Of a stretch of 41,071 bases of DNA, positions 671 to 41,071 are shown one piece after another. The position numbers and the translations under genes are program-made. Position 1 is the first letter of the stretch, and each line of letters opens with the position of its first letter. The notes beneath the pieces were generated by a model that had not been told where the DNA came from, made no database searches, and saw nothing but the letters and a program-made list of their open reading frames with translations. Source of the DNA: Candidatus Hydrogenedentota bacterium (GTDB lineage: Bacteria > Hydrogenedentota > Hydrogenedentia > Hydrogenedentales > CAITNO01); assembly GCA_022706235.1 (NCBI GenBank), contig JAKJCY010000016.1, forward strand, positions 1 to 41,071, given 5' to 3'.

Positions 671-704
671 GATGACTCCTCCATTCGTTTCTGTTGTTAC
701 CGGC

Positions 705-733: not shown

Positions 734-840
734 AAGAAGGTGTTCCGAATCACGCCGAACAAACATATCCTCCATGTCAGCCCCCGCGGCGCCCTGAAAT
801 GGCTGTGCACCCCGGGGGCCCGGCCTGCCTGCAACCGGGA

Positions 841-870
841 TTGCGAAGGCCTCCGTGCGCGGGTTACAAT
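841..870 (+). promoter_or_regulatory. Sigma70-like promoter for the first sulfatase
   Basis: TTGCGA (841-846), an 18-nt spacer and TACAAT (865-870) lie directly ahead of the AAGGAG ribosome site and the ATG at 889. The leader would be about 12 nt, which only just leaves room for the ribosome site. The -35 match is moderate. Confidence 0.45.
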
Positions 871-888
871 GGGAAAAAAGGAGCCCTC

Positions 889-2328
889 ATGAATACAAAC
901 CATCCTCTCCAGCGTGTCAGCCGGCGAAACGTGTTGCGGAGCGGCGCAGCGGCTTTTGCCGCCCTCGGACTTTCCCGGGCGGGCGCTGCGGAGGTCCCAC
1001 CCGCATCCCGGCCGAATATTCTGCTGCTTCACTGTCATGACCTGGGAACCTATCTCCAGTGTTACGGCACGGAAACGGTGCAAAGCCCGAATCTGGACGC
1101 CTTCGCGGCCAAGAGCGTGCTTTTTGCCAGGAACTTCTGCACCGCCCCGCAGTGCAGCCCGTCCCGGGCCTCCATTTTCACCGGCAGATACCCGCACAAC
1201 AACGGCGTCATGGGGCTGTGTCACGCCGACTTCGCCTGGGACCTTAATCAGGACGAGATGCATCTCGCACAACTGTTGAAGGATGCCGGTTATGCCGCTG
1301 AATCGGTGGGCGTGATTCATGAAACCCGCTCAGGTGCGGCGCGCTGCGGCTATGAGAAACATACAGGCAAGAACCGCGCCTCCGAAATGGCTATCGGCGC
1401 AATCGAGCGATTGCGCCACTTCGCCGAAACGCCCGGAAAACCCTTCTTCCTCTGTGCCGGGTGCATCGAACCCCACCGGATGCGCTCGCCGGAAGAGACG
1501 GATTACATGGGGTTTCTCTCCCCGGAATTCGGGCCGGACGACACACTGGGCGTGAATGTTCCCGGATTCCTGCGCGATACGCCGGGCACCCGCGCGGAAC
1601 TGGCGGAACTGCAGGGCGCGGTGAGGCACATGGACACGCAGATGGGCCACGTATTGGACGCCGTTTCGGAACTGGGCCTGGAAGAGAACACACTGGTCCT
1701 GTTCACCACGGACCACGGGTACGCCATGCCCCGCGCCAAATGTTCGCTCTACGAACCGGGCATCACGACAGCGCTCATTCTGCGGTTACCCTCGCGAAAG
1801 GGCTGGCATGGCGGCATTGTAAAGGAGGAGCATCTCTCCAACATAGACATCCTCCCCACGCTGCTGGAACTGGCAGGCGCGCCTGTTCCCGCAAACGTCC
1901 AGGGACGCTCCTTCATGTCCCTGCTCGACGGCGGCTCCTATACGCCCCGCGACAGTATCTTTGCCGAAATCAGCCATCATGACTACTACGACCCGCGCCG
2001 GTGCATCCGCACCGAAACCCATAAACTTATTGTCAACTTCTCCTCGGCGCCGGCCTACATGGACCCCTCCCAGTCCTGGCGGCCCCGGTCGGATACGGTT
2101 GTGCCGGAAAACCGCGCCGTCGCGTACCACCCCTGTTGCGAACTGTATGATCTGCGCGCGGACCCTTGGGAACAACATGATCTCGCCGAATCCGACGAAC
2201 ACGCGGCAATCCGCGAGGAGCTCCTCGTACGCCTGCGTGGCCACCTTGCGGCGACAAAGGACCCGATTTTAAACGGCGCTATTACACCTCCGCAACATAA
2301 AAAAGCCCTCGAATGCCTGGGGTTGTAA
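889..2328 (+). CDS. Tat-exported sulfatase, heparan N-sulfatase-like
   Basis: This 479-residue type I sulfatase should hydrolyse sulfate esters or N-sulfates outside the cytoplasm. The ATG at 889 is preferred over an upstream in-frame start at 799, because AAGGAG lies 6 nt before it and the protein then opens with a twin-arginine signal (SRRNVLRSG, residues 11-19). The sulfatase signature CSPSRASIFTGR starts at Cys89, the residue converted to formylglycine. The C-terminal metal motif TTDHGYAMPRAKC and the overall pattern recall bacterial N-sulfoglucosamine sulfohydrolase-like (SulfAtlas S1_8-type) enzymes. The first metal-binding block reads HCHDLG instead of the usual ADDLG. The preceding gene points the other way and a second sulfatase follows after 117 bp. 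Subfamily assignment is from memory. Confidence 0.9.
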   Translation: MNTNHPLQRVSRRNVLRSGAAAFAALGLSRAGAAEVPPASRPNILLLHCHDLGTYLQCYGTETVQSPNLDAFAAKSVLFARNFCTAPQCSPSRASIFTGRYPHNNGVMGLCHADFAWDLNQDEMHLAQLLKDAGYAAESVGVIHETRSGAARCGYEKHTGKNRASEMAIGAIERLRHFAETPGKPFFLCAGCIEPHRMRSPEETDYMGFLSPEFGPDDTLGVNVPGFLRDTPGTRAELAELQGAVRHMDTQMGHVLDAVSELGLEENTLVLFTTDHGYAMPRAKCSLYEPGITTALILRLPSRKGWHGGIVKEEHLSNIDILPTLLELAGAPVPANVQGRSFMSLLDGGSYTPRDSIFAEISHHDYYDPRRCIRTETHKLIVNFSSAPAYMDPSQSWRPRSDTVVPENRAVAYHPCCELYDLRADPWEQHDLAESDEHAAIREELLVRLRGHLAATKDPILNGAITPPQHKKALECLGL

Positions 2329-2445
2329 AATGCTTCAGACAGGATACATATAGGGGCCTGTCCATACGATGGTCCGGTATTTCAGCCATACTTGAAAACT
2401 TGCAGCGGCCTTTTTTGCGGGCGCACCACCCATGAGGAACAGCAG

Positions 2446-3843
2446 ATGGCGACACGACGAACGTTTCTGAAAACGTGCGCGGGTGTGCTGGCTCTGGAAG
2501 CGATGGCCCACCCCTTGACTGCGTTTGCCAGGGAGTCCGCTCGGGCAAACCATAAGCCTCCGAATATTATTGTGATTATGGCTGATGATCTTGGTTATGG
2601 CGACCTGGGCTGTTACGGCCATCCTGAAAATAAGACGCCGCATCTGGATCAACTGGCCCGGGAAGGCCTGCGATTTACCGATTTCCATGCAAACGGTCCC
2701 ATGTGTTCCCCCACGCGGGCCGCGTTGTTGACCGGCCGCTACCAGCACCGGCTGGGCCGGGAATTCGAGGGCGCCCTTTCCGCGAAGTCGCCCCATATCG
2801 GCCTGCCTCCGGAAATAACGACCTTGCCGAAGATACTGAAACAGGCGGGATACGCCACGGGCATGTATGGGAAATGGCACCTGGGCTACCAGGCGCCCAG
2901 CGTGCCGACCTATTTTGGCTTTGACGATTTCAGGGGACTTCTGACCGGGGACGGCGACCACATATCCCATGTCAGCCGTTCGGGCGGTGAGGATTGGTAT
3001 CACAACGAAAAGATTGAGATGGAAGAAGGGTACAGTTCCGAACTGATTACCAAGCACAGTATTGATTTCATGCGCAAAAACAAAGACACCCCCTTTTTTT
3101 TATATGTGGCGCATCTGGTCATCCATTTCCCCTGGCAGGCGCCCGGCGAGGAAGCCCACCGCAAGGTGGGCACGGATTACTGGAGCCTGGAAAAACTGGG
3201 CCCCCATCCCGAGGGAAGCGTGAAACCTGTGGTCCGGAAAATGGTGGAGGCGGTGGATGACAGCATCGGCGCCATCATGGCGGCCTTGCGTGAACTGGAA
3301 CTGGATGACAATACCTTCGTGCTGTTCCTGTCAGACAATGGCGGCTATCTGCATTATGACGACCTGTTTAAAGGCGAGATATCCCGAAATGCCCCGTTCC
3401 GGGGACAAAAGACGGACGTCTGGGAAGGGGGACACCGGGTGCCGGCCATCGCCTGGTGGCCGGACAAGATCGCCCCTGGAACCGTGTCCCGGGAGACCGC
3501 TATGACCATGGATATCCTGCCGACCTGCGCCGCCCTGGCTTCGGCTCCTGCGCCGTCCGGCCTGGATGGCACGACCCTCGCACCGCATTTGGTTGAGGGC
3601 AACGCCCTGCCGGAACGGGACCTCTTCTGGCGCATCGACGCGGCAAAGGCTGTCCGGCGCGGCCCCTGGAAACTTGTCGTTGAAGGGGACAGCGTGTTTT
3701 TATTCAACCTCGAAAAAGACATTGGAGAACAAGATAATATTGCCGCCCAGCACCCGGCGCTGGTCAAGGAACTGCTGGCGGTATTACACGCCTGGGAAAA
3801 AGATGTGGATGAAACCGGCTTCATGGGCTCCTTATCCCCCTGA
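2446..3843 (+). CDS. Tat-exported sulfatase (arylsulfatase family)
   Basis: This is a 465-residue type I sulfatase. The ATG at 2446 follows GAGGAA by 6 nt and gives a twin-arginine-like export signal (ATRRTFLKT). The frame is also open from a TTG at 2392, but that start has no ribosome site and would bury the signal. IMADDLGYGDLG (residues 44-55) supplies the calcium-binding Asp pair. CSPTRAALLTGRY begins at Cys87, the formylglycine site. GKWHLG and SDNGG blocks follow in the usual order. It belongs to the large arylsulfatase A/GALNS-like group; the substrate cannot be read from the sequence. It lies 117 bp after the first sulfatase on the same strand with no terminator between, so the two are probably co-transcribed. 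Confidence 0.93.
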   Translation: MATRRTFLKTCAGVLALEAMAHPLTAFARESARANHKPPNIIVIMADDLGYGDLGCYGHPENKTPHLDQLAREGLRFTDFHANGPMCSPTRAALLTGRYQHRLGREFEGALSAKSPHIGLPPEITTLPKILKQAGYATGMYGKWHLGYQAPSVPTYFGFDDFRGLLTGDGDHISHVSRSGGEDWYHNEKIEMEEGYSSELITKHSIDFMRKNKDTPFFLYVAHLVIHFPWQAPGEEAHRKVGTDYWSLEKLGPHPEGSVKPVVRKMVEAVDDSIGAIMAALRELELDDNTFVLFLSDNGGYLHYDDLFKGEISRNAPFRGQKTDVWEGGHRVPAIAWWPDKIAPGTVSRETAMTMDILPTCAALASAPAPSGLDGTTLAPHLVEGNALPERDLFWRIDAAKAVRRGPWKLVVEGDSVFLFNLEKDIGEQDNIAAQHPALVKELLAVLHAWEKDVDETGFMGSLSP

Positions 3844-3891
3844 GGCCGATGTTCTGCGTGTCCTTTTCCGGGGAACGAAGTGCGCATTTTT

Positions 3892-6429
3892 CTACCAGGC
3901 GATATTTACGTTTCCGGTGACGTTCTCTACAACAAAATGCCTGCCGAACTTCGGGTCACCCGTTTTGAGTTCTACTTTGCCTGCATGGTACGGGTAGCTC
4001 GAATTAACAGCGATACGCACATTGTTCACATCAGAGGCGGTGTCCGGGTAGAAACGGAGTGTGGCGTTCTCGAGCCCGGCGACCTGTAGTCTTCTCTTAA
4101 CACCGTAGTGTCCCGAGTGTGCTTCCCGGCAGGATAGTTTGCCATCCTGTTGCCCGTCAACGAATACGCGGCATTCCCGGTGCCAGGCGCGGGGCAGGGT
4201 ATAGGTCGAACGCCCTTCCTCAAGCCAGGTTTCATACCCGATAAGCAGGGGCGCGCCCTGGGGATAGCGAAACCGTTCCGTTACCGTGGTGTCGGGGCTG
4301 TAGCCGGAAAAGAAAAAGCCGTTATGCCGCCTGGCGACACCTACCAGCGGGTCGGGTTGTTCAGCGAGCCGTTTTGTGACAACAAAGTCGTACCCGAAAA
4401 CATGCAGGGCAAAACGCATCAGGAGCTCCCCCTGAAACCACGTTGCGGGATCATCGTTCAACAGCAGCCGTGCCCCTTTTCGGTAATAATTCGAGTTTAC
4501 GCCGCGTATCCACACCAAACCGCCGCCGTTCCATTCCGGCAGGAACCGGGACGCGGCGATGACCCGGCTCTCCCCTTCACGCGAAACCGACGCGAGCACC
4601 GCGGCATCCGCGGCCTGTACCGTCGCCCGCAACGGTCCGCCGCCCGTCAACGAACGGTGTTGTATCCTGGTCGGCCACTGTCCCGCCTCCAACTGGTCAA
4701 GGTTCATGGCTGTTACCAAGTCAAACTCCCCTTCCAGCGGCGTGTCCAGACGCACCCCCAGCAAGTCCAGCAGGTTGGCGCTTGCATGCGCCAGGGGACC
4801 ATACAGCAATACGCGCCCACCTTTTTTGAGCGTATCCAGCAAGCCGGCTTCCAAGGCCGTTCCCTCGTCGGGCACGATGGACAGGAGCACCGATTCGTCA
4901 TAAATTTCGGGGCGCGCCACTCTTGATGACAGAAAATTGTTCGTGGATACAACCGTATTAACCGGGAATCCGATGTTGATTGCCCGGCAGATAAACCAAT
5001 CGCCGAACAGCACTTCCCCCACCCTCGGGTTCTCCGCGAAGGTCATGTCGTGGTATTCGTCGAAAGGATATATCCAAACGACGGGCCCGGACTGATCGGG
5101 GCTGTCCGCGCGGCCGCGCAGGATATGGGGGATAACCTCATTCGGCACTTCCACCGGCATTTCGCCGAATGAATTGTCTGCCGTAAGGAACAAGATGGAA
5201 GTCGGCAGCCACACCGCGCCTGTCGCGTCAATACGGGCCACGGACATGGGCAGATAAATATCGTGCGGCTCCCGCCCGTACCGGTCCAGCCAGGGACTGT
5301 TCAGCCACCAGGGGTCATGGGTGTAATACCGGAACGGGTAGTCGTCCCCGGGGATTTCCGCTATGTGCGACATGTACCCGGCCAATTCCAGCCCGAAATT
5401 GCCGTCCAATGCGGCCCAGGGCGAATTGGGCGGTGGAACCATGTTGAATCCGCCCCGGTAAATCTCCCGCAGGGGAACGCCGTCCGAGGCAAGGTCCATG
5501 CCCGTGGACAGGTTCGTGCCGCGTGTTTCAATCAAATATTCCGGGCACTCTTCCCGGAACAGTCGCCAGAAGTCGAGGATTTTCTCCCGCACGGGGGGAA
5601 GTCCTGCCGTGTCGAAGCGTTCACCGTCAAAGACGGCGCCGGTGCATCCCCAGGTTTCGAGGCCGAACCCGAATCCGTTCGATAACCAGAGGTAGTCAAA
5701 GGATAAATCGCGAAGGAAATGCCGGCATTGCCTGCCGAAGAAGGTGCCGAAGGGGGTTCCTTCGGGAATGCCTTCCGGAAACCCGGCATACCGTTCCCGG
5801 TCTCCTTTCAACACGGAATAACTGCAGACCATGGTGCCTTTGCCCATGGTGTCGCCGAGGCAGATTTCCGGGTGAAGTTTATATTTGAAGGGGGAATCGG
5901 CAAACTCGGGGCCGGGATCGAAGGTGGCGCCCGCGCGCACCGGTTTGCCGGTGATTTCGTTACCCACCCGCTTCAGCGCCGCCACGATGCGTTTCAGGTC
6001 GCCGTAGGTGATTGTGGGCGGGTTTTCCGTGTAGAGAAAGGCACGCTGATGCAAAGAGAGATGTTCGGGACCCGAACCGACTTCCACCTTGGAATTCGCG
6101 CCGCCAATATAGCGCCCCCACTCTATTTCTTCCGACAGGTCGCCTTTATACGTGAGAATTTCCGAGCCATCGGCCGTCCAGAGCAATACGGACACCCCGT
6201 CCGCGTGACGGGTCAGGGGCGACCACTGCCGGAATAGTTCCTTGCACGTCGCTTCAATATAAGCCTCATCCATATTCTTAAAAGGTTTGAGGCTCAGTTC
6301 CAAGGTAACATTTTTAATCCCCGGATAGTCCAGCGCCTGGTCCATCGGGCGTTCCCCGGAGGCGCCCGGGACCGCAAGCCCCAAAGCCAACAGCAGTATC
6401 CCTGTCTGAAACTGATGCGTTGCGTGCAT
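3892..6429 (-). CDS. Large secreted protein of unrecognised family, probable glycan-active enzyme
   Basis: This 845-residue protein starts at an ATG preceded by GGAGGAG. It has a Sec-type signal ending near residue 25 (VPGASG/E). I do not recognise a named family. Residues 40-450 look like an alpha/beta barrel-type domain with many Trp, Asp and Glu residues (LLWTADGSEIL at 82-92, FDPGPEF at 170-176, THDPWWLNSPW at 370-380). Residues 505-565 look like a Rossmann/GATase-like unit (LKKGGRVLLYGP), the arrangement seen in the trimerisation domain of GH42 beta-galactosidases. The remainder is predicted beta-rich. It follows the third sulfatase by 32 bp on the same strand, so the two are an operon and it may cleave the desulfated glycan. 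The enzymatic role is inference. Confidence 0.7.
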   Translation of the reverse strand: MHATHQFQTGILLLALGLAVPGASGERPMDQALDYPGIKNVTLELSLKPFKNMDEAYIEATCKELFRQWSPLTRHADGVSVLLWTADGSEILTYKGDLSEEIEWGRYIGGANSKVEVGSGPEHLSLHQRAFLYTENPPTITYGDLKRIVAALKRVGNEITGKPVRAGATFDPGPEFADSPFKYKLHPEICLGDTMGKGTMVCSYSVLKGDRERYAGFPEGIPEGTPFGTFFGRQCRHFLRDLSFDYLWLSNGFGFGLETWGCTGAVFDGERFDTAGLPPVREKILDFWRLFREECPEYLIETRGTNLSTGMDLASDGVPLREIYRGGFNMVPPPNSPWAALDGNFGLELAGYMSHIAEIPGDDYPFRYYTHDPWWLNSPWLDRYGREPHDIYLPMSVARIDATGAVWLPTSILFLTADNSFGEMPVEVPNEVIPHILRGRADSPDQSGPVVWIYPFDEYHDMTFAENPRVGEVLFGDWFICRAINIGFPVNTVVSTNNFLSSRVARPEIYDESVLLSIVPDEGTALEAGLLDTLKKGGRVLLYGPLAHASANLLDLLGVRLDTPLEGEFDLVTAMNLDQLEAGQWPTRIQHRSLTGGGPLRATVQAADAAVLASVSREGESRVIAASRFLPEWNGGGLVWIRGVNSNYYRKGARLLLNDDPATWFQGELLMRFALHVFGYDFVVTKRLAEQPDPLVGVARRHNGFFFSGYSPDTTVTERFRYPQGAPLLIGYETWLEEGRSTYTLPRAWHRECRVFVDGQQDGKLSCREAHSGHYGVKRRLQVAGLENATLRFYPDTASDVNNVRIAVNSSYPYHAGKVELKTGDPKFGRHFVVENVTGNVNIAW

Positions 6430-6461
6430 GGTTTTGACTCCTCCGAGGCGATTGTAATCCG

Positions 6462-7868
6462 CTACCCCTCGGGCCTCCAGATGGCCCTGCCCTCGTAGAG
6501 GGAGCCGACAGGATACCGGTCGTCAGGACGGACCGCCTTTTTCATAATAGCTTCAATCTTTTGCACCACGTCGGGGTGGCCGGCGGCGACATTATTTTTC
6601 TCCCCCATGTCCGTGTCGAGATCATACAGTTGGATTTGGGAACCGGTGCCCAGACGAATACCTTTCCAGTTACCCATGCGCACGGCCTGATCGTACCGTT
6701 CACGGCAGTGCCCGTAATCCCAGTACAGGTATTCGTGGGGATTCGTAATCCGGCCTCCGGCCAGGGCGTCCACAATAGAAACACCATCAATGCCGGGTGG
6801 CGGTTCCGTGCCGGCCAATGCAGCGAAGGTGGGGAGCATGTCCCAAAAGGCGATGATCTCGTTACTGGTGACGTTCGCCGGTATCCTGCCGGGCCAGCGT
6901 GCAATGAACGGCACCCGGATACCGCCTTCCGTCAGGTCCCGTTTGAATCCCCGCAGCGGCCCGCTGGTGTTCAGGTGTTCCGGAATGTCCTCATGGCCGC
7001 CGTTGTCGCTGGTGAAGATAACGAGGGTGTGATCGGCGATGTCCAGTTCCTCCAGCAGAGACAGGATGCGCCCCACGTCGCGGTCAAGCCGGTGAATCAT
7101 GGCGGCATATTTCTTCGCTTTTTCGCTCCAGTTCTTACCGGTGTACGGTTCGGTCGAGGGCACGGCCAGACCGTCGGCGTCTTCGCTTTTCGAGGAAAAG
7201 TGGGGCAACGTGAAGGCACCGTAAAGAAAGAAGGGCGTGCCCTTGTTTTCACGAATGAACTCAAGGGCCCGTTCGGCAATGAGATCATGGCTGTAGTGGG
7301 CGTGTGATTTGGTGTTGCCGGTCAATTCAAGACGGCCATCATTATCATCAAGGTACTCTGTGTAATAGTAGTGGGCATGGTCCTGGTTGAGGTAGCCGAA
7401 CCACGTATCGAAACCCTGGTTTGTGGCACGCCCCACGGTGCCGGGATCGCCGAGGGACCATTTGCCGAAGCCACCGCAACGGTAGCCGGCATTTTTGAGC
7501 ACTTCAGCGATGGTAATATCATCTTCTTCGAGGTAGGTGTGATAGTGGGGGATATTATCGCGCGCCGGCGTATGACCGTTGTGCAGGCCGGTCATGAGTA
7601 CGCTGCGTGACGGGGTGCAAACAGGGCCGCCGGCATAGGCCTGGGTGAACCGGAGACCATCCGCGGCCAGGCGGTCAATGTTTGGTGTCCGGATTTGCTG
7701 TTGTCCATAACAGCCAAGATCGCCATAACCAAGGTCATCGGCCATAATAAAAACGATATTCGGGCAACGGCTAGCCAAGGCAGGTGTTTTTTCGGCAGCT
7801 GCTTTGGTCATGGGGAGCGCCGCCGTGCCTGCCAGAACGGCGGTTTTGAGAAAATATCGTCTATCCAT
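6462..7868 (-). CDS. Exported sulfatase (arylsulfatase A-like)
   Basis: This is a 468-residue type I sulfatase. The frame is open upstream to 7985, but the ATG at 7868 has GGAGA 8 nt ahead and begins MDRRYFLKTAVLAGTAAL, a twin-arginine-like or Sec signal. IMADDLGYGDLG (residues 41-52) carries the metal ligands. CTPSRSVLMTG begins at Cys84, the formylglycine site. FGKWSLG and TSDNGGH continue the pattern. The closing KNNVAAGHP block is common in the marine arylsulfatase A-like group. It sits between the Gfo/Idh gene upstream (202 bp, containing a double-hairpin repeat) and the 845-residue secreted protein downstream (32 bp). Substrate is unknown. Confidence 0.93.
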   Translation of the reverse strand: MDRRYFLKTAVLAGTAALPMTKAAAEKTPALASRCPNIVFIMADDLGYGDLGCYGQQQIRTPNIDRLAADGLRFTQAYAGGPVCTPSRSVLMTGLHNGHTPARDNIPHYHTYLEEDDITIAEVLKNAGYRCGGFGKWSLGDPGTVGRATNQGFDTWFGYLNQDHAHYYYTEYLDDNDGRLELTGNTKSHAHYSHDLIAERALEFIRENKGTPFFLYGAFTLPHFSSKSEDADGLAVPSTEPYTGKNWSEKAKKYAAMIHRLDRDVGRILSLLEELDIADHTLVIFTSDNGGHEDIPEHLNTSGPLRGFKRDLTEGGIRVPFIARWPGRIPANVTSNEIIAFWDMLPTFAALAGTEPPPGIDGVSIVDALAGGRITNPHEYLYWDYGHCRERYDQAVRMGNWKGIRLGTGSQIQLYDLDTDMGEKNNVAAGHPDVVQKIEAIMKKAVRPDDRYPVGSLYEGRAIWRPEG

Positions 7869-7923
7869 TCGTATCTTCTCCGGTTGCCGCCTTGGGTATA
7901 GGAATTCACACACAAATAGGACG

Positions 7924-8012
7924 TAGTAGGCGTACCTTCCCAGGTGCGCCATAGAGTAATATGACAATCTATGGTTCTGCCCCATGGCGCACCTGGGAAG
8001 GTACGCCTACTA
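7924..8012. repeat. Double-hairpin (BIME-like) inverted repeat
   Basis: Arms at 7924-7952 and 7984-8012 are perfect 29-nt reverse complements around a 31-nt centre. Each arm is itself a hairpin (GGCGTACCT, four-base loop, AGGTGCGCC). A competing pair CCATAGA (7949-7955) and TCTATGG (7968-7974) spans the centre. It lies in the 202-bp gap between the Gfo/Idh and sulfatase genes. Confidence 0.85.
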
Positions 8013-8070
8013 AAAAGTCGCTTTGGGCTTGCAGAGCGCGTTATTCGTTATTTTTTCGCTGCTCCGTCCG

Positions 8071-9528
8071 TTAAACCTCGGTAATGGCGGGGATTTCGAA
8101 ACCGGGACGATTCTCGTCCTTGACCAGTTTGTTCGCCTCTTCGGCATGGTCGCCGACAAAAAGTTCCGTTTCGGGATCGAAGTTCAGCCAGGGACCTACG
8201 ATATATTCGTTGCCGTCTTCCGGGATACCGACACCGGCACTCATGATATCGTGGAGTTTCGCAAAGTGTTCATAGGCCTCCGGAATGTCCCCGAACTGCC
8301 CTGCTTTGGCATTGAACGGCGCTTTTTGGCCGAGCCGGTAGGAATTGTTAATCACATGACCCAGAACGCAACTATAATGGGAATCGGGCGCGTTGCCGTT
8401 GGCCATGTTCGGATCGCCCGCACGGCAGGCGCCGATAAAGCTGCCCCAGTTCCCGCCGGGGGTCGCTTTTCCGGATACGGCGGGAATGTCTTCACCTTCC
8501 GTACTACCCTTGGCATAATATTTATTGCGGATGATTTTGCCGCCGTCCTCGAAGTAGTATTCATTTTCGACCTGGTGCTCATACCCATCGTAATTAATGT
8601 TGCGCACGTTGAAGAACACGTATTGGCCATTGGGATACTCGGCGATGCCAAACATGGTGTTCGGTGTTTCCCCCTGGTCCGCCCACTTAAAGCGGCCGCC
8701 GAGGGCCATGGCGCGCACCGGATGGGTTTGATTCAGGTCAAGGGCCCAACGGGCCTGGTCCAGCTGATGCGTTCCCTGGTTGTTTAAATCACCGTTGCCC
8801 GTCGGCCAGAACCAATGCCAATTATAATGCACATAGTTGTCATGGTACTGCTCGATATTGGCCGGTCCCCGCCAAAGATTCCAATCCAGATTTTCCGGCG
8901 GGTCCGAGGGCTCCTTGAACCCGATACCTTCGCGGGGCTTGCAGCAGTAACCGTAGGATATCTTTAACTTGCCGTATTTTCCGGCTTGAATGGCCTCATG
9001 TAGCCCTGCAATCTCCGCATTGCTCCGGTTCTGTGTGCCATGCTGAATGACGACGCCGTACTTTTTCTGCGCTTCCACAACAATCCTGCCTTCGCCGATG
9101 TCATGGCTCATTGGTTTCTCGACGTAGACGTGTTTCCCGGCCTGCGCACCCCAGATGGTCATCAGGGAATGCCAGTGGTTGGGCGTGGCAACGGAGATGG
9201 CGTCAAGATTCTTGTCTTCAAGGGCTTCGCGGACATCACGGACCCCCTTGGTGACAAACTTCCCTTCCCCTTTTCGTTCCATGGCGCGCAGGGCCCTGTT
9301 CAAGACCCGCTCGTCCGGATCAATGACATAGGCAATCTCGACATTATCCTGGTCCAGCCAGCCACCGATATGGCTTTGGCCGCGGCCGTTAAGCCCGGCC
9401 ACGGCGATGCGGAGCCGGTCATTAGCGCCAATGACCCTTCCCGAGGCGCTCGTGCCGCTGAGGATCAGAGAGGCCCCCGCAAAAGCGGAGGCGGATTTCA
9501 TAAACTGACGACGACTGATAGTTGTCAT
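8071..9528 (-). CDS. Tat-exported Gfo/Idh/MocA-family oxidoreductase
   Basis: This 485-residue protein starts at the ATG on 9528, with GGAGA 8 nt upstream. The frame is open to 9744 but that extension overlaps the end of the neighbouring HAD gene and lacks a signal. ISRRQFMKSASAF is a twin-arginine signal. The Rossmann motif GLNGRG lies at 45-50 and the family EKP motif at 137-139 (VEKPMSHDIGEG), so the presumed catalytic Lys is present. HQLDQARWAL matches the C-terminal histidine region. Exported relatives in Planctomycetes and Bacteroidetes carry their NAD(P) as a cofactor and act on sugars or glycosides; some are alpha-N-acetylgalactosaminidase-like. It is probably the first gene of a minus-strand sugar operon with its own good promoter. 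The exact substrate is not readable. Confidence 0.92.
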   Translation of the reverse strand: MTTISRRQFMKSASAFAGASLILSGTSASGRVIGANDRLRIAVAGLNGRGQSHIGGWLDQDNVEIAYVIDPDERVLNRALRAMERKGEGKFVTKGVRDVREALEDKNLDAISVATPNHWHSLMTIWGAQAGKHVYVEKPMSHDIGEGRIVVEAQKKYGVVIQHGTQNRSNAEIAGLHEAIQAGKYGKLKISYGYCCKPREGIGFKEPSDPPENLDWNLWRGPANIEQYHDNYVHYNWHWFWPTGNGDLNNQGTHQLDQARWALDLNQTHPVRAMALGGRFKWADQGETPNTMFGIAEYPNGQYVFFNVRNINYDGYEHQVENEYYFEDGGKIIRNKYYAKGSTEGEDIPAVSGKATPGGNWGSFIGACRAGDPNMANGNAPDSHYSCVLGHVINNSYRLGQKAPFNAKAGQFGDIPEAYEHFAKLHDIMSAGVGIPEDGNEYIVGPWLNFDPETELFVGDHAEEANKLVKDENRPGFEIPAITEV

Positions 9529-9561
9529 GGGTTGTTTCTCCTTTTGTGTTGACCCTCGGCA

Positions 9562-9590
9562 ATTATAGGTGGACCACTTCGAAAAATCAA
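9562..9590 (-). promoter_or_regulatory. Sigma70-like promoter for the exported Gfo/Idh gene
   Basis: On the minus strand TTGATT (9590-9585), a 17-nt spacer and perfect TATAAT (9567-9562). The predicted leader is about 28 nt and includes the GGAGA ribosome site. This is one of the best promoter matches in the window. Confidence 0.65.
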
Positions 9591-9664
9591 GGAAGCGGCG
9601 CTGGTGTGCGTCCCTTATACAAGGCAAGGGCCCGTCCACAACCCTCTTCAGGGGGTGTTTTCCT

Positions 9665-10378
9665 CTACGGGACCACCGTCGGCAACACTTCAAGAAAATG
9701 CCGCCAGGAGGGCAGGACATAATCCGCGCGGGTGGTTTCGGCATACCGGTTATTCACGCCGGTAAACAAGCCGGCCTTACTGTTAACCTGATGGGCGCCG
9801 ACAATATCCGTGGGCTCCAGATCGCCGATGTGCCACAGTTCATGGGGGGCGACGCCCAGTTTTTCCGCAGTTCGGTCAAACATGCCCCGTTGCGGCTTGG
9901 CGATTCCGGTTTCATCGGAAAAGGTCAAAGCGCTGAAATGGGCAAGGAACCCTTCTTTCTCCAACACCACCCGCAGATGTCTTCCCGGACTGAATCCGGT
10001 GTCGGAGATGATGGCAATGGGGACACGTTCCGCGGCTGTCCGCACGGCCTTGAGAGCACTTGTGATAGGTTCGGGAGGATGCTCGAGGATGGCAGCCCCG
10101 AAACACTGGGCGAGGTACGCAAAGGTCTTTTCGTCAAGTTCCAAATTATTTTTCGCACATACCATTCCAACCGCGTCTGAAGGAGTAAGGGTATGCTGTG
10201 TCTCCAGATGCTTTTGAAGAAAATAGACCATAATCTCACGAAGGGATCTATCGGCCTGTTCTGCGGGAATACCCGTGGCCTCGGCGAGCGCCTTCACACG
10301 AAGGCCGTGCCTTTTATCACCATTGGCATCCCGAAACAGGGTGCCCCAGAAATCAAATGTGATTGCGCGAATCGTCAT
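9665..10378 (-). CDS. HAD-superfamily hydrolase
   Basis: This is a 237-residue cytoplasmic protein. HAD motif I is ITFDFWGTL with nucleophile Asp9; the second acidic residue of the usual DxD is Trp, as in the D-x-Y of haloacid dehalogenases. Motif II is IISDTG, motif III is the Lys in GIAKPQRGMF, and motif IV is HIGDLEPTDIVGA with both acids. A helical cap domain sits between motifs I and II, so it is a C1-type HAD. The reaction could be phosphatase or dehalogenase; the missing acid/base Asp makes ordinary phosphatase activity less certain. GGTGG about 10 nt before the ATG is a weak ribosome site. It ends 136 bp before the exported Gfo/Idh gene on the same strand. Confidence 0.88.
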   Translation of the reverse strand: MTIRAITFDFWGTLFRDANGDKRHGLRVKALAEATGIPAEQADRSLREIMVYFLQKHLETQHTLTPSDAVGMVCAKNNLELDEKTFAYLAQCFGAAILEHPPEPITSALKAVRTAAERVPIAIISDTGFSPGRHLRVVLEKEGFLAHFSALTFSDETGIAKPQRGMFDRTAEKLGVAPHELWHIGDLEPTDIVGAHQVNSKAGLFTGVNNRYAETTRADYVLPSWRHFLEVLPTVVP

Positions 10379-17792: not shown

Positions 17793-18476
17793 TCACCTGA
17801 CGAATAGGTGTCCTTCCCGCCACCCCTGTTTCCCTATCAGGGGAACAAACCGGCATGCCATGCCGCGTTCCTGTTCGTACAAGTCACCTTGGCGCACAAC
17901 CGTGACAATGTCCTGTATTTTTTCGTTGCCTACCGGCACCACAAGACGTCCGCCTTCCGCCAGCTGCCCCGGCAGGGCCGGCGGCACCGCCGGTGCGCCG
18001 GCGGTGACCAATATGCCGTCATAGGGCGCTTCTTCCGGAAAGCCGGAAGAACCGTCGTCAGCAATAACGCGCACGTTCGCGCAACCCAAGGACTCCAGCA
18101 AGGCGCGGGCCTCCCGCGCAAGAGCGGGATGCCGCTCTACGGTAACCACCGTTCCCGCGAGTTGCGCCAGGACCGCTGCCTGATATCCGGAACCGGTACC
18201 TATTTCCAGTATCTTGGCGCCCGGCGCAATTCTCAGCATTTCCGTCATCGCCGCCACCATATAAGGCTGGGAAATCGTCTGTCCACAAGCAATGGGCAAG
18301 GCACAGTCCTTATAGGCCTCCAACCATTGGACACGTGGTAGAAACAAATGCCTGGGCGTGTTTCGCATGACGGAAAGTACACGCTCATCCCGTACCCCCC
18401 GGGCTGCAATCTGCGAGTCCACCATGAGGGAGCGTTCAACCGGAAAGGCATTGTGTTCTTCTTCCGTGAAATACAT
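17793..18476 (-). CDS. pcm: Protein-L-isoaspartate O-methyltransferase
   Basis: This 227-residue protein methylates isoaspartyl residues in damaged proteins with S-adenosylmethionine. The ATG at 18476 has AAGG 6 nt upstream and gives MYFTEEEHNAF; an earlier in-frame start at 18509 would add 11 residues and has no ribosome site. LEIGTGSGYQAAVLAQL is the SAM-binding loop. YKDCALPIACGQTISQPYMVA matches the PCMT family signature, and DGILVTAGAP is the post-I block. Divergent from rpsA, with a MITE-like element between them. Confidence 0.95.
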   Translation of the reverse strand: MYFTEEEHNAFPVERSLMVDSQIAARGVRDERVLSVMRNTPRHLFLPRVQWLEAYKDCALPIACGQTISQPYMVAAMTEMLRIAPGAKILEIGTGSGYQAAVLAQLAGTVVTVERHPALAREARALLESLGCANVRVIADDGSSGFPEEAPYDGILVTAGAPAVPPALPGQLAEGGRLVVPVGNEKIQDIVTVVRQGDLYEQERGMACRFVPLIGKQGWREGHLFVR

Positions 18477-18561
18477 GAATCGCCTTGCTCCGCCGGAGGC
18501 ACAAGTCACCTGGCATGCTTTGCACCGGACGTTCCGACACCAGAGGGGCAGCCCTCACCCA

Positions 18562-18725
18562 AATCCGCACGCAAGAAACCCAGTTGTTGGCGTAAAGCCA
18601 ATAAGGACAAGGAACGCAGAAGAGGCATCCTGCCGCTTTGCATCAAGACGGACATGCGGGCCGCAGTCACGATGGAAGCGGCACGATGCCGCTTCTACGA
18701 TCTTGCCATTCCTTACGTGCGAATT
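18562..18725 (-). repeat. MITE-like element, copy 2 (fullest copy)
   Basis: This 164-bp copy lies in inverted orientation to copies 1 and 3. Its imperfect 18-nt terminal inverted repeats are AATCCGCACGCAAGAAAC (18562-18579) and, on the minus strand, AATTCGCACGTAAGGAAT (18725-18708), 14 of 18 identical. The inside holds long nested stems. It fills most of the space between pcm and the rpsA promoter. Confidence 0.85.
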
Positions 18726-18744
18726 CAGGCCTTCAGCCCTGTTC

Positions 18745-18774
18745 TTGAAAGTCTAGTACTTTTCCTGATAAAAT
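18745..18774 (+). promoter_or_regulatory. Strong promoter for rpsA
   Basis: TTGAAA (18745-18750), 18-nt spacer, TAAAAT (18769-18774) with TG one base before the -10 (extended -10). Predicted leader is about 50 nt. A strong promoter is expected for ribosomal protein S1. Confidence 0.6.
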
Positions 18775-18830
18775 ATCAATACTCCACATTTCGTGGAAAT
18801 TTCCATTTCAAAAGGAGCAAGTTTAGTTAC

Positions 18831-20873
18831 ATGAGTGAAGAACAACTGGTAACCCAACAAGCCCGGGCCGCGCAAGGGGAAATCAAAGTGGATTTCCATG
18901 ACGACCTGGAGGCCGAACTAGAAGAACAACTCAAAGCAGACAGCATGGCAGCCCTGCTTGAGGAAAAGATCCAAAACTTCAAGGAAGGTGAAGTCGTACG
19001 CGGTCGTATCGTAAATATCACCGATGACCGTATCATGGTGGATATTGGATACAAGAGTGAAGGGATTGTGGACCGCTCGGAGTTCATGAATCCTGACGAC
19101 ATCGTACTTGAAGCGGACTACGATTTTTACATCGATGAACCCGAAAATGACATGGGGGCGCCGATTCTCTCCAAGATTAAGGCTGACCGCATCAAAAACT
19201 GGGAACATGTGCAGGAAGTCTACAATAATGACGGCGTCATTGAAGGTGTAATTTCCCGCCGCGTCAAGGGCGGCCTCAAGATGGACATCGGCGTGGATGC
19301 GTTCATGCCCGCAAGCCAATTGACTTTCCGGCCCACAGGTGATCTTGACCGCTACATCGGCGAAAAGATGGAGGTAAAAATCGTCAAGTTAACGCGTCGG
19401 CGCCGCAATGTAGTTGTCAGCCGTCGGCGGCTTCTTGAGGAACTTCGCGCCGAAGAGAAGAAAAGACTGCTTGAGCGCATTGAGGTGGGCAGCATCATCG
19501 AGGGCGAAGTCAAAAATATCACTGATTTCGGCGCCTTCGTGGATGTAGGTGGCATTGACGGGTTGCTCCACGTCACCGATATGAGTTGGGGACGGGTCAA
19601 GCATCCTTCCCACCTGGTAAAAGTCGGCGACAAAGTGGAAGTCATGGTGCTGAGCTTTGATCCGGTCAGCGAACGGATCAGCCTTGGTATCAAGCAGAAG
19701 AAGGAAAATCCGTGGCTGACGGTAGCCGAGCGCTACCCCGTCGGCTCTATTATGCGCGGACGCGTGGTCACCATGACGGACTACGGCGCCTTTGTGCACC
19801 TGGAAGAAGGCGTTGAAGGCATGGTTCACGTCAGTGAAATGAGCTGGACCCGCCGCGTACGTTATCCCGGTGAAGTATTGAATGAAGGCGACGAAGTGGA
19901 CGTGATGGTGCTAAGCGTGGACACGGACGAAGAAAAAATCGCCCTCGGTATCAAGCAAACGATGCCTAATCCATGGAAACAACTGGGCGAGCGGTATCCT
20001 GTAGGGTCTACCATCAAGGGTACGGTGCGCAATCTTACGGATTACGGCGCCTTTGTACAGATAGAAGACGGCATTGATGCGCTGCTTCATGTCAGTGATT
20101 TATCCTGGACGAAAAAAGTAACCAACCCTGGTGAAATACTACAAAAAGGCCAGGAAATCGAAGTTCAGGTTCTGAGCATTGACCCGGAAGCGGAAAAGAT
20201 TAGCGTCGGACTTAAGCAACTGTTTTCAGATCCTTGGCTTTCCGTGGTGGAAAACCTGCCTATCGGCGCCCATGTCGAAGTGGATATCGTCAAGCTGGTA
20301 GCCTTTGGCGCCTTTGCCCGCCTTGAAAACGGCGTGGAAGGGCTAATCCATGTCAGCGAGTTGGCCGAAGATCGCGTCAATAAGCCTGAAGATGTTCTCA
20401 AGGTCGGTGACCATGTTTCGGCCAAGGTCATCAGCATCAGCCCCGCGGATCGCCGGATTGGACTCAGTATTCGCGAATATCAGCGTGATTTGAACCGCAG
20501 CGCTACCGAAGAACATGAACAGGCCACTGGAAGCGTGGATGTGAACGCTGCCCTGAGTGGTGCTGTGCCTCAGAGCATGATTCAGGCGGGGCGCAGCCTT
20601 GCTGATGTGGCTCTCGACCTGATGGCTGCGGTAAACCGCGTTGAAACGGCCCGTGCCGCCGAGCGTGAAGCCAAGGCGGAAGCCGAGGCGCTGCAGAAAG
20701 CGGAACAGGAAAAGGCGGAAGCCTCTCCGGAACCCGTTGAAGAGCCCTCCGAGATGCAGGAGCAGGCCGCTCCTGTTGAAGAATCCGAAACTGCGGACGA
20801 GGTCCCCCCCCCGTCTGCCGTATCGGAGGCACCTGTAGAAGAACTGGCGCCGGATCCTGATAAGGAAATCTGA
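18831..20873 (+). CDS. rpsA: 30S ribosomal protein S1
   Basis: This 680-residue protein binds mRNA at the small subunit and helps start translation. The ATG at 18831 is chosen because everything upstream in the long open frame is the MITE-like element and promoter; AAGGAG lies 13 nt before it, a wide spacing. Six S1 (OB-fold) repeats are visible at about 50-120, 135-200, 218-290, 303-377, 390-463 and 476-550. Repeats 3 to 5 are closest to each other (TDFGAF or TDYGAF, LLHVTDMSW, GIKQ). Residues 605-680 form an acidic Ala/Glu/Pro-rich tail absent from E. coli S1 (557 residues). A strong promoter lies before it and an intrinsic terminator after it, so it is monocistronic. Confidence 0.97.
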   Translation: MSEEQLVTQQARAAQGEIKVDFHDDLEAELEEQLKADSMAALLEEKIQNFKEGEVVRGRIVNITDDRIMVDIGYKSEGIVDRSEFMNPDDIVLEADYDFYIDEPENDMGAPILSKIKADRIKNWEHVQEVYNNDGVIEGVISRRVKGGLKMDIGVDAFMPASQLTFRPTGDLDRYIGEKMEVKIVKLTRRRRNVVVSRRRLLEELRAEEKKRLLERIEVGSIIEGEVKNITDFGAFVDVGGIDGLLHVTDMSWGRVKHPSHLVKVGDKVEVMVLSFDPVSERISLGIKQKKENPWLTVAERYPVGSIMRGRVVTMTDYGAFVHLEEGVEGMVHVSEMSWTRRVRYPGEVLNEGDEVDVMVLSVDTDEEKIALGIKQTMPNPWKQLGERYPVGSTIKGTVRNLTDYGAFVQIEDGIDALLHVSDLSWTKKVTNPGEILQKGQEIEVQVLSIDPEAEKISVGLKQLFSDPWLSVVENLPIGAHVEVDIVKLVAFGAFARLENGVEGLIHVSELAEDRVNKPEDVLKVGDHVSAKVISISPADRRIGLSIREYQRDLNRSATEEHEQATGSVDVNAALSGAVPQSMIQAGRSLADVALDLMAAVNRVETARAAEREAKAEAEALQKAEQEKAEASPEPVEEPSEMQEQAAPVEESETADEVPPPSAVSEAPVEELAPDPDKEI

Positions 20874-37055: not shown

Positions 37056-37070
37056 TTGGGAGAAGAAATC

Positions 37071-39410
37071 ATGAAGAAATGGCTAAAACGAATTCTTGTC
37101 GTTCTGCTGGTACTGCTCGCGGTACCCGTGGTTTTTATATTGGGCGTGTACGGTGCCTATTCCCATATCACGTCCCAGAAAACGGGCCGCCTGCCCGTAG
37201 ATGTGTTCGCAGGGCCGCTGGGTACGCACGTGGACCCCTTTATCGGTACGGGTGGCATGTTCTATATGTGCGCCAACAACAATCCCGCCGCCTGCGTGCC
37301 CTTTGGTATGGTGCGCCTGGGCCCCGACACGGCATCGTTGCTGATCAATAAGACTGCTTTAAATTATTCGGGCTACTATTACGGCGACAACAAGATCATC
37401 GGGTTCAGCCATACCCGCATCCTCGGCGCGGGGGTTCGCGAGGGGGGCAATTTCAGGGTATTCCCCACGCTCTCTGATACGGTGCAAGGCGGCACGGAAA
37501 CTCCTTTTGTCCGTTTTTCCCATCGGCAGGAAACGGCCTTCCCGGGATATTACGCGATACAGTTGAAGAAGCCGGACATTCTGGCCGAGTTTACCGCGAC
37601 CGCCCATGTCGGCGTTCACCGGTACACCTTCCCCACGGGCAACTCCCCCTTTTTACGTCTGGACGTTACGAGCGCACTGGGCGACGGACGCTGTGAAGAC
37701 GGCACCTTTCATATTCTTCCGGAAACCCACGAAATCGAAGGGACCGTCCGGTATTTCGGTTCTTTTTCCGGCCGCTATGATGGCCTGGACCTGTTTTTTC
37801 TTGCCCGCTTCAACCAGCCCATCCGCCAACAAAGCGTATGGTACGGCGATACCATACAACCGGGCGCGGACGGCGCCGCAGGTACTCGTATCGGCGCTCA
37901 CCTCGGGTTTGCCCCCGCCATCGAAGGCCATCCGCTGGAAATGCGCCTCGCCGTGTCCCCGGTCAGCATCGCCAACGCCCGGCTGAACCTGGACACGGAA
38001 GCGGGCACCCAAACCTTTCACGACCTTTTCGCCGCCGCGCGGGATGCGTGGGAAGACCGGCTTCAGTGCATCCACATCCAGGGGGGCACGGACCGGTACC
38101 GGCGCATTTTCTACACCGCCCTGTACCGTACGTTTCAGTTGCCCACCCTGTTCACGGATGTAAACGGGGAATACCGCGGCTTTGACAAGGAGGTGCATAC
38201 CGCCGAAGGTTTTCGTTATTACACCGACTTTTCCCTCTGGGACACGTTCCGCACGGTACATCCCCTGTACAACCTGGTCGCTCGTGAGGAACAGCGGGAC
38301 ATGATGGCTTCGCTGGTGGAAATGTCCAAGGCTGGAGGGGGTTGCCTGCCGCGATGGCCCGCCGGTTGCGGGTACACCAACAGCATGTTCGGCACCCCGG
38401 CGGACATGGCCGTCAGCGAAGCGTGGTTGAAAGGCATCCGGGATTTTGACATCGAGACGGCCTACGCGGCCATGCGCCGCACCGCAATGGAGGGCGTGCC
38501 TTCCGGCTGCAGGTTCAGCGGACGGAGCGGCCTGGATGCGTACCTGCAGTTCGGCTATTGTCCGGACGACAAAATGAAAAATTCCGTTTCCGCCACCTTT
38601 GAATATGCCTGGGCCGACCATGCCCTTTCCCTGTTGGCAACCGATCTGGGCAAGGAGGAAGACGCCCGGGTCTTTGCCGCTCGGGCGCAATCCTATCAAA
38701 AATTATGGAATCCCGAAAGCCGCCTGTTCCATCCCCGGCATTCCAATGGCCGCTTTGAAGCCGAAATTAAGCCGGAGTTGCTGACCTACCTGGACTTTAA
38801 TCAAAAGTACACCCGCGCCTACTGCGAAGGTAGCGCCATCCAGTGGCGCTGGGCGGCCCCCTTCGACCCGGAAGGGCTGATAAATACCATCGGCGGAAAC
38901 GAGGTGTTTGTCCGGAAACTGGAAGACTATCTAAGCAAGACAAAGAAACGCCTCGGCAATTGGAATCCCGGGCCCTATTACTGGCAGGGGAATGAACCCT
39001 ATTTTCATGCCGCCTACCTGTTCAACGATGCCGGCCGGCCCGATTTGACGCAGAAATGGGTGCGGTATCTGTTGGAAAACAAGCATAACGACGATTATAT
39101 CGGGCTTGACGGCAACGATGACTGCGGCACCTTGTCCGCGTGGTATGTGCTCAGCGCCGTCGGCCTGTATCCCATCGCGGGCACGACCCGGTACTGGATC
39201 GGGTCCCCCCTCTTTGAGCGGGCCGACCTGCGTATGGATGCCGGCGTTACATTAACTGTGGTTGCCGAAAACAACGCTGCTGACAATCCTTATATACAGC
39301 AGCTGTGGCTGAATGATGTTCCCCTGGAACGTTTCTGGCTCGACCACAGAGAAATCGCAACCGGCGGCGTGTTGCGATTTGAGATGGGACCAAAACCGGC
39401 GCTTCGCTGA
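37071..39410 (+). CDS. Membrane-anchored GH92 alpha-mannosidase
   Basis: This 779-residue calcium-dependent exo-alpha-mannosidase family protein starts at the ATG on 37071, with GGGAGAAG upstream. The N-terminus is a long hydrophobic segment (about 7-31, MKKWLKRILVVLLVLLAV...) without a clear cleavage site or lipobox, so it is probably a membrane anchor. The GH92 opening VDPFIGTGG follows, then PFGMVRLGPD, GFSHTRILGAG, FSLWDTFRTVHPLY, FEYAWADHAL and the C-terminal GNDDCGTLSAW at 681-691, which contributes catalytic and metal-binding residues in this family. It would remove alpha-mannose from N-glycan- or mannan-type chains. It ends 1 bp from the end of the convergent surface-protein gene. Confidence 0.95.
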   Translation: MKKWLKRILVVLLVLLAVPVVFILGVYGAYSHITSQKTGRLPVDVFAGPLGTHVDPFIGTGGMFYMCANNNPAACVPFGMVRLGPDTASLLINKTALNYSGYYYGDNKIIGFSHTRILGAGVREGGNFRVFPTLSDTVQGGTETPFVRFSHRQETAFPGYYAIQLKKPDILAEFTATAHVGVHRYTFPTGNSPFLRLDVTSALGDGRCEDGTFHILPETHEIEGTVRYFGSFSGRYDGLDLFFLARFNQPIRQQSVWYGDTIQPGADGAAGTRIGAHLGFAPAIEGHPLEMRLAVSPVSIANARLNLDTEAGTQTFHDLFAAARDAWEDRLQCIHIQGGTDRYRRIFYTALYRTFQLPTLFTDVNGEYRGFDKEVHTAEGFRYYTDFSLWDTFRTVHPLYNLVAREEQRDMMASLVEMSKAGGGCLPRWPAGCGYTNSMFGTPADMAVSEAWLKGIRDFDIETAYAAMRRTAMEGVPSGCRFSGRSGLDAYLQFGYCPDDKMKNSVSATFEYAWADHALSLLATDLGKEEDARVFAARAQSYQKLWNPESRLFHPRHSNGRFEAEIKPELLTYLDFNQKYTRAYCEGSAIQWRWAAPFDPEGLINTIGGNEVFVRKLEDYLSKTKKRLGNWNPGPYYWQGNEPYFHAAYLFNDAGRPDLTQKWVRYLLENKHNDDYIGLDGNDDCGTLSAWYVLSAVGLYPIAGTTRYWIGSPLFERADLRMDAGVTLTVVAENNAADNPYIQQLWLNDVPLERFWLDHREIATGGVLRFEMGPKPALR

Positions 39411-39411
39411 A

Positions 39412-41071
39412 TTACTCCTCCACTACCCAGCACAGCGGGGGTGCGGTCTGGGGATCATACACATACTGTTCACCGTTTTTCCAAATATAGGCGGCACGAA
39501 TAGCATAGTTTATTGGGTTGACTCCCTGCTGCCAGCCTGTCAGATAGGCAATAGCCTCACTTATCCCAACCCGCCAATCCATATTCAAATCGGCCGGAAT
39601 AGGGATATTTTCACCTTCGCCCTCACCTTCACCCAGGCATCCCGTGTAAGCGCTCAAGTCGCTCTCGACAAAATCCACGGGCATCCCGTTCCCTTGGGAA
39701 ATTCCAACCAGTCCGTCAGTGGAGGCCATGCCGAGGTGCGTGATTGTAATCAAACCCGCATCGGGTCCGCCCTCATAATACATTTCAATTTGAAAACTAT
39801 TTCCCAGGTAACCACCATATTCGGGAACATCTTGAAATGTTATGGCTACATGGTCGGCAAATTCACGGGAAGAAACGGTCCCCGCGCTGGCGGGATTCAG
39901 GTCGTCAAATAAGCCGCTGATATGGGGCAAGGCAAAGTGTGCTCCTACACTCTCCTGGTATTCCGTTTCAGCGGTGCCAAAGGTGATATAGCCGTTGCTT
40001 CCGATATAGAAGGTCGTGTAGGAAACCCCATACAGGGACACTTGGCGTCCTCCTGATAGCGTTACCGCCGCATAGCCATCGTCCGCAAGGGAATACGCAA
40101 TTCCGCCTGCCGGGTCCGAGGAAAAACTGGTTGCCGGCTCGCGGCAGGCCTGATAGAAATTCATCGAACCGTCCGGCGTAAAAAACAGCGTCTGATTGGA
40201 AACATCATTGTCCGAAGCGTCAAATACCTCCGTAAAGTAGTCCGTCTGCTCCAAGGTGGCAAACCCGTAACAGGAACCGTTATTGTCGTTCACCGCGCTG
40301 TTGCCCACCGCATCGGCCGCCTCGATAGAAAGGAAATAAGCGCTATCCGGCAGCAACCCGGACAGCGCTATACTGTGACTGGTTTTCAATCCTGCTTCGG
40401 TGACATCGAATGTCAGCGCATCACAAGCCGTCCCATAGCGAACCACCCCAGTGGCGGGTTCGTCGGTATCAAAGGTGACGGAGGCTTCGGTTGCCTGGAT
40501 GTTGAGGATGTTCACGTTATTAATACCCGTAGGCGCACAGTCGATCACGGCATCCGCCGTTACCGGAACATCTAGGCCTCCGGCGCCGTCATCCGCATCC
40601 ACATACGTTGCGGTTATGGTATCGCCATCCGCCACCGCAAGACTGCCCGGTATACCGGTCGCACTTAAAGCAACGTTGCCCGAAAAGAAGGACGTATCAG
40701 GTCCGGATTCCGTCAAGGTTACCGGCATGCCTGAAGGTTCTGAAGTGGAAATTACCGTCACCATCACCGTTTGTGCGGTGCCGGGATCCGTGTTCAAATC
40801 GGTATCCGAGACTCTGACAACAACCGTATCCTCGCAGGCGTACCGGGAGGCGTCCAGGAACAAACTGCCCTCTGAACCGGCGGCCACGGGAAGCGCAACC
40901 TCGAGGGAACGGTAGTTTCGGCACGTTATGGTCAACAGCGCACTACCGGAAATCAGCGGAGGCGTGAAGGACATCGCCGCTTCACCGCCTGACGATACGG
41001 TTACGCCATGAATCCTACCGTCCTGGGTGATGGCGGCCACGGCGCCATCGGGTGCGCCATATACACTGAAG
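39412..41071 (-). CDS. C-terminal part of a large surface protein with Gly-Glu linker and terminal module
   Basis: The frame is open through the right edge, so the N-terminal part is missing; 553 codons are visible before the TAA at 39414-39412. In order there is an Ig-like domain (GAVAAITQDGRIHGVTV, LLTITCRNYRSLEV) like the domain after C25 gingipain peptidases, then a beta-sandwich (VVVRVSDTDLNTDPG), a fibronectin III-like domain (EASVTFDTDEPATGVVRYG) and a domain around YIGSNGYITFG. The linker is GEGEGEGEN, and the end is a conserved-looking module (ADLNMDWRVGISEAIAYL, LTGWQQG, WVVEE) with a dockerin-like DxNxD start. The protein is exported; a C25 peptidase upstream is only a guess. Confidence 0.8.
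   Translation of the reverse strand, partial: FSVYGAPDGAVAAITQDGRIHGVTVSSGGEAAMSFTPPLISGSALLTITCRNYRSLEVALPVAAGSEGSLFLDASRYACEDTVVVRVSDTDLNTDPGTAQTVMVTVISTSEPSGMPVTLTESGPDTSFFSGNVALSATGIPGSLAVADGDTITATYVDADDGAGGLDVPVTADAVIDCAPTGINNVNILNIQATEASVTFDTDEPATGVVRYGTACDALTFDVTEAGLKTSHSIALSGLLPDSAYFLSIEAADAVGNSAVNDNNGSCYGFATLEQTDYFTEVFDASDNDVSNQTLFFTPDGSMNFYQACREPATSFSSDPAGGIAYSLADDGYAAVTLSGGRQVSLYGVSYTTFYIGSNGYITFGTAETEYQESVGAHFALPHISGLFDDLNPASAGTVSSREFADHVAITFQDVPEYGGYLGNSFQIEMYYEGGPDAGLITITHLGMASTDGLVGISQGNGMPVDFVESDLSAYTGCLGEGEGEGENIPIPADLNMDWRVGISEAIAYLTGWQQGVNPINYAIRAAYIWKNGEQYVYDPQTAPPLCWVVEE

Follow-up and report, generated by a model that had tools for sequence, protein, structure and literature searches.

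What is the small, constant domain that closes the surface protein at the end of this stretch of DNA, and what does it do for the proteins that carry it? The window (the whole 41,071 nucleotides analysed, from a Candidatus Hydrogenedentota genome, G000, of 5.03 Mb and 88% completeness) ends in a minus-strand frame, 39412-41070, whose product finishes in ...GCLGEGEGEGENIPIPADLNMDWRVGISEAIAYLTGWQQGVNPINYAIRAAYIWKNGEQYVYDPQTAPPLCWVVEE*. The initial annotation described here a GEGEGEGEN linker and a module of roughly 60 residues, and proposed that the pair forms a phylum-specific sorting or attachment tag. Linker and module are both real; the module is 64 residues long and is found 52 times in the genome. 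The protein is laid out as follows.

39412-41070, minus strand: C-terminal 552 aa of an exported-type surface protein; open frame, truncated on its 5' side where the contig stops
39673-40110, minus strand: passenger domain, aa 321-466; recurs in proteins with a dockerin ending from eight genomes that lack the module
39607-39633, minus strand: GEGEGEGEN linker, aa 480-488, read from the sequence
39415-39606, minus strand: module of 64 residues, aa 489-552, present 52 times in the genome; AlphaFold2 model
39556-39591, minus strand: EF-hand loop D-L-N-M-D-W-R-V-G-I-S-E, module residues 6-17, with invariant D6 and E17
39529-39564, minus strand: helix 1, module residues 15-26, with invariant W25 and Q26 (DSSP on the model; same in the divergent variant)
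39478-39513, minus strand: helix 2, module residues 32-43, AIRAAYLW signature (DSSP on the models of both variants)
39421-39468, minus strand: C-terminal strands, module residues 47-50 and 60-62, with Y48, C59 and W60 (DSSP on the model)
39412-39414, minus strand: stop codon

The signal peptide of this protein is not visible because the contig ends. Its visible part contains a Peptidase_C25_C Ig-like domain (aa 8-54, E 5e-8), and a Pur_ac_phosph_N-like match at aa 187-254 lies below the cutoff.

An undescribed and lineage-restricted module family

The 52 copies in the window's genome (E 4e-51 to 3e-16, all in open reading frames) resemble one another in sequence far beyond chance. Mean column identity across 50 aligned copies is 69%, with D6, E17, W25, Q26, G28, A35, W42, Y48 and W60 invariant; Y48 and W60 are invariant in both genera that carry the module, and C59 is variable. 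Cys59 was considered as a site of covalent attachment and rejected, several copies having no Cys (PPMWW, TPLSW, PPLHW, PPQSW). No Pfam or NCBIfam model recognises the module, the NCBIfam scan of the window-protein tail came back empty, and the literature that we searched contained no paper on it, so that neither these libraries nor these papers describe the family.

Each protein carries a single copy, and the passengers, i.e. the remainders of these proteins, are unrelated: subtilase, PET-hydrolase-like, GH113, sulfatase, formylglycine-generating-enzyme-like, DUF3160 and CotH proteins, along with beta-helix, GLUG, TIG, LVIVD, HEAT, PASTA and alpha/beta hydrolase proteins. The annotation had asked whether hits would be confined to one protein family; they fall on many varied exported proteins. 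A signal peptide was found by a simple hydrophobic-core test in 39 of the 45 frames with a visible start in the window's genome, and several of the frames that failed this test clearly have one on inspection. Export of the module proteins as lipoproteins was rejected, with at most six loose lipobox matches in 82.

How far does the module reach? Full-length copies occur in five of 68 Hydrogenedentota genomes (G000, 52; G009, 44; G013, 17; G012, 15; G008, 1), which represent two genera of one family, and G007, from the window's own genus, is without it. Widening the profile with the divergent genus produced no additional full-length copy in the 68 genomes, only EF loops, including one extra partial EF-loop match each in G012 and G013. 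Two conserved peptides were also searched for in about 85,000 species genomes, in a scan that reaches close relatives only, and Ca. Hydrogenedentota RA.bin58 alone was returned. With full-length copies in five of 68 genomes, the module is lineage-restricted, and the label of phylum-specific has to be dropped.

Module segments also appear to recombine. A stretch of about 3.7 kb shared by G000 and G009 (L042 on C207; L127 on C212), two otherwise clearly different genomes, is 100% identical save for 17 substitutions within 100 bp of the second half of the module, as if recent transfer or cross-binning had been combined with recombination of a module segment; no donor of the divergent segment was found. 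The N-terminal module of a protein from the other genus, g4 (L140:4460-8416, G012), clusters with modules that are likewise N-terminal in the window's genome (SH-aLRT 94), a grouping of sequences hinting at exchange between genera. Could the module then be a structural cap that stabilises long repeat proteins and is spread by recombination? Recombination is seen at the module level and repeat proteins are among many of the passengers, but the module is also found at the opposite end of compact enzymes (GH113, sulfatase, alpha/beta hydrolase). Further, dN/dS over 20 G000/G009 orthologue pairs is 0.20 for the module, 0.30 for its flanks and 0.32 for the passengers, so that by codon comparison the module is shown to be under purifying selection stronger than that on its passengers, and we regard the cap as highly improbable.

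A predicted fold around one calcium loop

AlphaFold2 models are confident both for the window copy (pLDDT 97.9, pTM 0.84) and for a copy from the other genus that shares about a third of its residues (pLDDT 97.1, pTM 0.82). In both variants the predicted fold is compact and mainly helical: an EF-hand loop, two helices and a hairpin of two short strands. The single DxNxD noted in the initial annotation is present, but it understates the motif, as D6-x-N8-x-D10-x-R12-V13-x-x-x-E17 is a canonical 12-residue EF-hand loop, with D at position 1, D/N at 3 and 5, a hydrophobic residue at 8, E at 12 and a helix thereafter. A single calcium site is predicted from the residues at loop positions 1, 3, 5 and 12 (D, N/D, D/N, E), and from sequence and model together, calcium binding by the module is probable. 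The loop is recognised in profile comparisons too: module residues 4-25 align in the widened profile A4 with EF loops of the calmodulin type (best E 6e-6), and eight of 38 members match Pfam EF-hand_6 at E <= 1 (best 1e-3).

The module thus shares with EF-hand loop proteins (PF00036, PF13405, PF13202) the canonical 12-residue calcium loop and the exiting helix. It differs from them in that the loop is single and unpaired, with one loop per 64-residue module, and is followed by a helix and strands unseen in solved EF-hand proteins. Foldseek returned only matches above E 2 (best E 2.2), with EF-hands and dockerins among the best; by this search, the modelled second half is without a solved structural counterpart.

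Is the module a dockerin?

Dockerins of type I consist of two tandem calcium-binding F-hand repeats of about 22 residues each. The likeness to dockerin type I (PF00404) and its cohesin partner (PF00963) is a real one, for here too a small calcium loop and helix is appended to either end of unrelated exported proteins, often behind a linker. One might therefore ask whether the module is a dockerin by another name, which binds scaffold cohesins and builds extracellular enzyme complexes. Its loop and helix align with the dockerin F-hand over 17-19 residues (hhalign, probability 79% for 19 residues), dockerins 2y3n and 5lxv are among the weak hits of Foldseek, and G012 and G013 each encode a small protein composed of signal peptide, module and cohesin, like an adaptor scaffoldin. 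However, the module has one EF/F-hand motif and no second dockerin repeat, Glu occupies loop position 12 as in EF-hands, its second half is a helix and a hairpin, and Pfam Dockerin_1 is matched by one of 38 members (E 0.05). Nor is there a cohesin expansion to match: G000 has one cohesin, beside a true dockerin, versus 52 modules, and G009 has none versus 44. Across the family, true dockerins number 0-4 and cohesins 0-6 per genome, with no tracking of the module, and a PF00404 scan of G000 found one protein, a true dockerin on C216 and not the module. Repeat number, loop type and cohesin counts all speak against membership in the dockerins, and we consider this reading improbable. The initial annotation had itself named a known dockerin with cohesins in the same genome as the finding that would undo its proposal; one F-hand motif and no matching expansion of cohesins are what we observe.

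Three observations touch on this subject. The small cohesin proteins of G012 (L143_9, L143:4918-5679) and G013 (L165_71, L165:3745-4569) suggest by analogy that the module can anchor a cohesin, in an adaptor-like arrangement. At L054:1-2099 (G000 C216), a cohesin protein adjoins the true two-repeat dockerin protein, with GE linkers. Finally, the domain at aa 321-466 of the window protein matches L282-L285 and L287-L290 (BLASTP E 1e-20 to 4e-5), which have two-repeat dockerin ends; these loci were retrieved by a dockerin search, so that the dockerin ending was selected for, and the comparison shows that this domain occurs together with dockerins but not how frequently.

Position within the protein

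The expectation was that the module would always be C-terminal. This is indeed its most frequent place in the window's genome (38 of 52 copies, behind an acidic Gly-Glu linker on varied exported proteins, much as was first described), and in three quarters of cases 2-15 residues separate the end of the module from the stop codon. Yet 13 of the 52 directly follow a signal peptide, and one is internal, between two GE linkers in L048_88, i.e. in the mid-protein position that the initial annotation had counted against itself. On the module tree, which is weakly supported, position has changed at least 14 times. Such changes are beyond a C-terminal processing signal and are possible for an autonomous domain, and we read the module as an autonomous domain. 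Autonomous domains at either terminus are familiar from the SLH domains, which attach proteins to the cell surface. The module resembles SLH-type anchors in these respects, but Pfam scans found no relation to them in sequence or fold, and it occurs as a single copy per protein.

Exchange with CTERM tails

What do relatives of the module proteins carry in its place? In module-free genomes, homologues of module-bearing passengers finish with a Cys motif followed by a hydrophobic helix and basic residues. The tail consists of G-C-x-C or CC, a helix of the LGDWLLIGLSLLVL type and Arg (alignment A3; e.g. L293 in G008, L317 in G007, L336 and L338 in G000). CTERM sorting signals in general combine a signature motif, a transmembrane helix and a basic C-terminus, and are strictly C-terminal. 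With a profile built from 28 tails of A3, such tails were found in 17 of 17 family genomes at 4-36 per genome, and in lower numbers elsewhere. They fit the published MYXO-CTERM architecture of a GCGC-type Cys motif, TM helix and Arg-rich end (PMC11980579), and the NCBIfam MYXO-CTERM model gave 0 matches in the three A3 tails tested; we describe the family-wide tails as resembling MYXO-CTERM in sequence. The statement in the initial annotation that many secreted Hydrogenedentota proteins close with this linker and module fits the linker and not the module, full-length in so few genomes, and may well apply to the CTERM tails instead. The GE linker is not specific to the module, lying within 60 residues upstream of 49 of 56 CTERM tails and missing beside many modules.

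The passengers of the two endings overlap. A passenger homologous to that of a module protein is present in 36 of 56 CTERM proteins, taken from sister genomes or from the same genomes, including one self-match (E < 1e-10, >=80 aa). This count is inflated because beta-helix and GLUG repeats, which are common families, make up some of the shared passengers; 12 CTERM proteins remain when >=200 aa and >=40% identity are required. For example, a G008 protein (C111) and a G000 protein (C137) are 90% identical over 939 residues, and the match stops ten residues before the G000 module; the G008 protein continues instead through GE linkers into a CTERM tail. GLUG proteins of G000 have both endings: the passenger of a CTERM protein on C52 is homologous to that of L110_0 up to residue 299, and the L110_0 module starts at 303. 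A DUF3160 pair differs likewise, one paralogue being a module-free lipoprotein by its lipobox and the other, L048_88, having the module. Module and CTERM tail stand together in one of 117 module proteins (L153_10 in G008, where the module is internal). Sequence alignment has thus shown that the module substitutes for CTERM tails on homologous passengers. In the window's genus, g1, module and CTERM counts per genome are 52/7, 44/2, 1/36 and 0/15, and both are moderate in g4; the inverse relation rests on those four genomes, because across the 17 genomes of the family the two counts are uncorrelated (Spearman -0.23, p 0.38).

Does this exchange make the module an export or sorting signal in its own right, one that a secretion machine recognises and that is then cleaved away? 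Its usual nearness to the stop codon and the replacement of CTERM tails would agree with that, but the N-terminal and internal copies, the lack of any transmembrane or basic segment, and exosortase matches in G000 that fall below the cut-off would not, and we judge it quite unlikely. The C-terminal domain of type IX secretion is a C-terminal beta-sandwich, and was rejected as an identity for the module, which is helical with short strands and has N-terminal copies; SprA_N had no match in 17 genomes, nor in control genomes for that family. A CTERM/exosortase signal was likewise rejected on architecture and position, and the weak exosortase matches of G000 and G009 also occur in module-free genomes. 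Like the tags of MYXO-CTERM/myxosortase (TIGR03901; PMC11980579) and GlyGly-CTERM/rhombosortase (PMC3237569), the module marks dozens of exported proteins across a genome; unlike them, it lacks the Cys-TM-Arg architecture, is predicted to fold as a domain and also occurs in N-terminal position. The analogy first drawn with type IX and PEP-CTERM signals is accordingly withdrawn, and of the proposed sorting or attachment tag we retain the part that describes surface retention.

A proposed role in surface docking

The module works like a dockerin or an anchor tag, yet has the defining features of neither family. About fifty unrelated exported proteins with the module at either end, and relatives with a membrane-anchoring tail, probably make it a surface-holding tag, and on balance we favour, by a modest degree, the view that it holds proteins at the cell surface by docking. 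Module proteins are exported by the Sec route on an ordinary signal peptide, present by sequence in most complete frames. The module would fold around its one EF-hand calcium site, as the loop and the model indicate, and, uncleaved, would retain its protein by non-covalent binding to a single common receptor or polymer of the surface. It would do the job of the relatives' cleaved, lipid-type CTERM tail, with the same kinds of passenger, the same linker and often the same C-terminal place. It should also function behind a signal peptide or inside a protein, positions where it is found, because a folded binding domain, not being a processing signal, can work away from the C-terminus. Counting against this view, targeted searches found no conserved partner gene of the kind that the initial annotation had suggested looking for, and no receptor; the inverse counts are confined to one genus, and G007 of that genus does without the module.

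Might the module instead bind a ligand outside the cell, so that enzymes adhere to a substrate, matrix or polysaccharide in the surroundings and not to the producer? Like carbohydrate-binding modules, it is independent of position, single in each protein and attached to many degradative enzymes, and it has conserved aromatics (W25, W42, Y48, W60). These aromatics may be core residues, however, many passengers are non-enzymes (TIG, HEAT, PASTA, beta-helix), and the tails that the module replaces are of membrane type; we regard external binding as unlikely, if less so than the dockerin and sorting-signal readings.

If docking at the producer's own surface is correct, a further and more tentative step would be that one genus switched anchors wholesale, from a cleaved and probably lipid-anchored CTERM tail to a calcium docking module that stays uncleaved, acts independently of position and has a receptor of its own; we find this conceivable, leaning towards doubt. 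Were it true, the switch would add to the cohesin-dockerin and sortase-type systems a third means of holding dozens of proteins on a Gram-negative-type cell. The comparison of endings shows homologous surface proteins swapping entire anchoring devices, and the findings yield a testable prediction of how an uncultured phylum decorates its surface. For annotation, this so far unannotated module, present on about 50 exported proteins in a genome, offers a ready model, and if a receptor is found, this compact single calcium-loop domain could be exploited as a small tag for protein display.

Other genes of the window

Positions 1-9744 and 37056-39410 of the window encode two sulfatases, a GFO/IDH/MocA oxidoreductase and a GH92 glycosidase, none of them module-bearing; this set suggests a lifestyle that uses sulfated glycans. 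At 18348-20873 on the plus strand lies a protein of 841 aa that has six or more S1 RNA-binding domains and is long for ribosomal protein S1.
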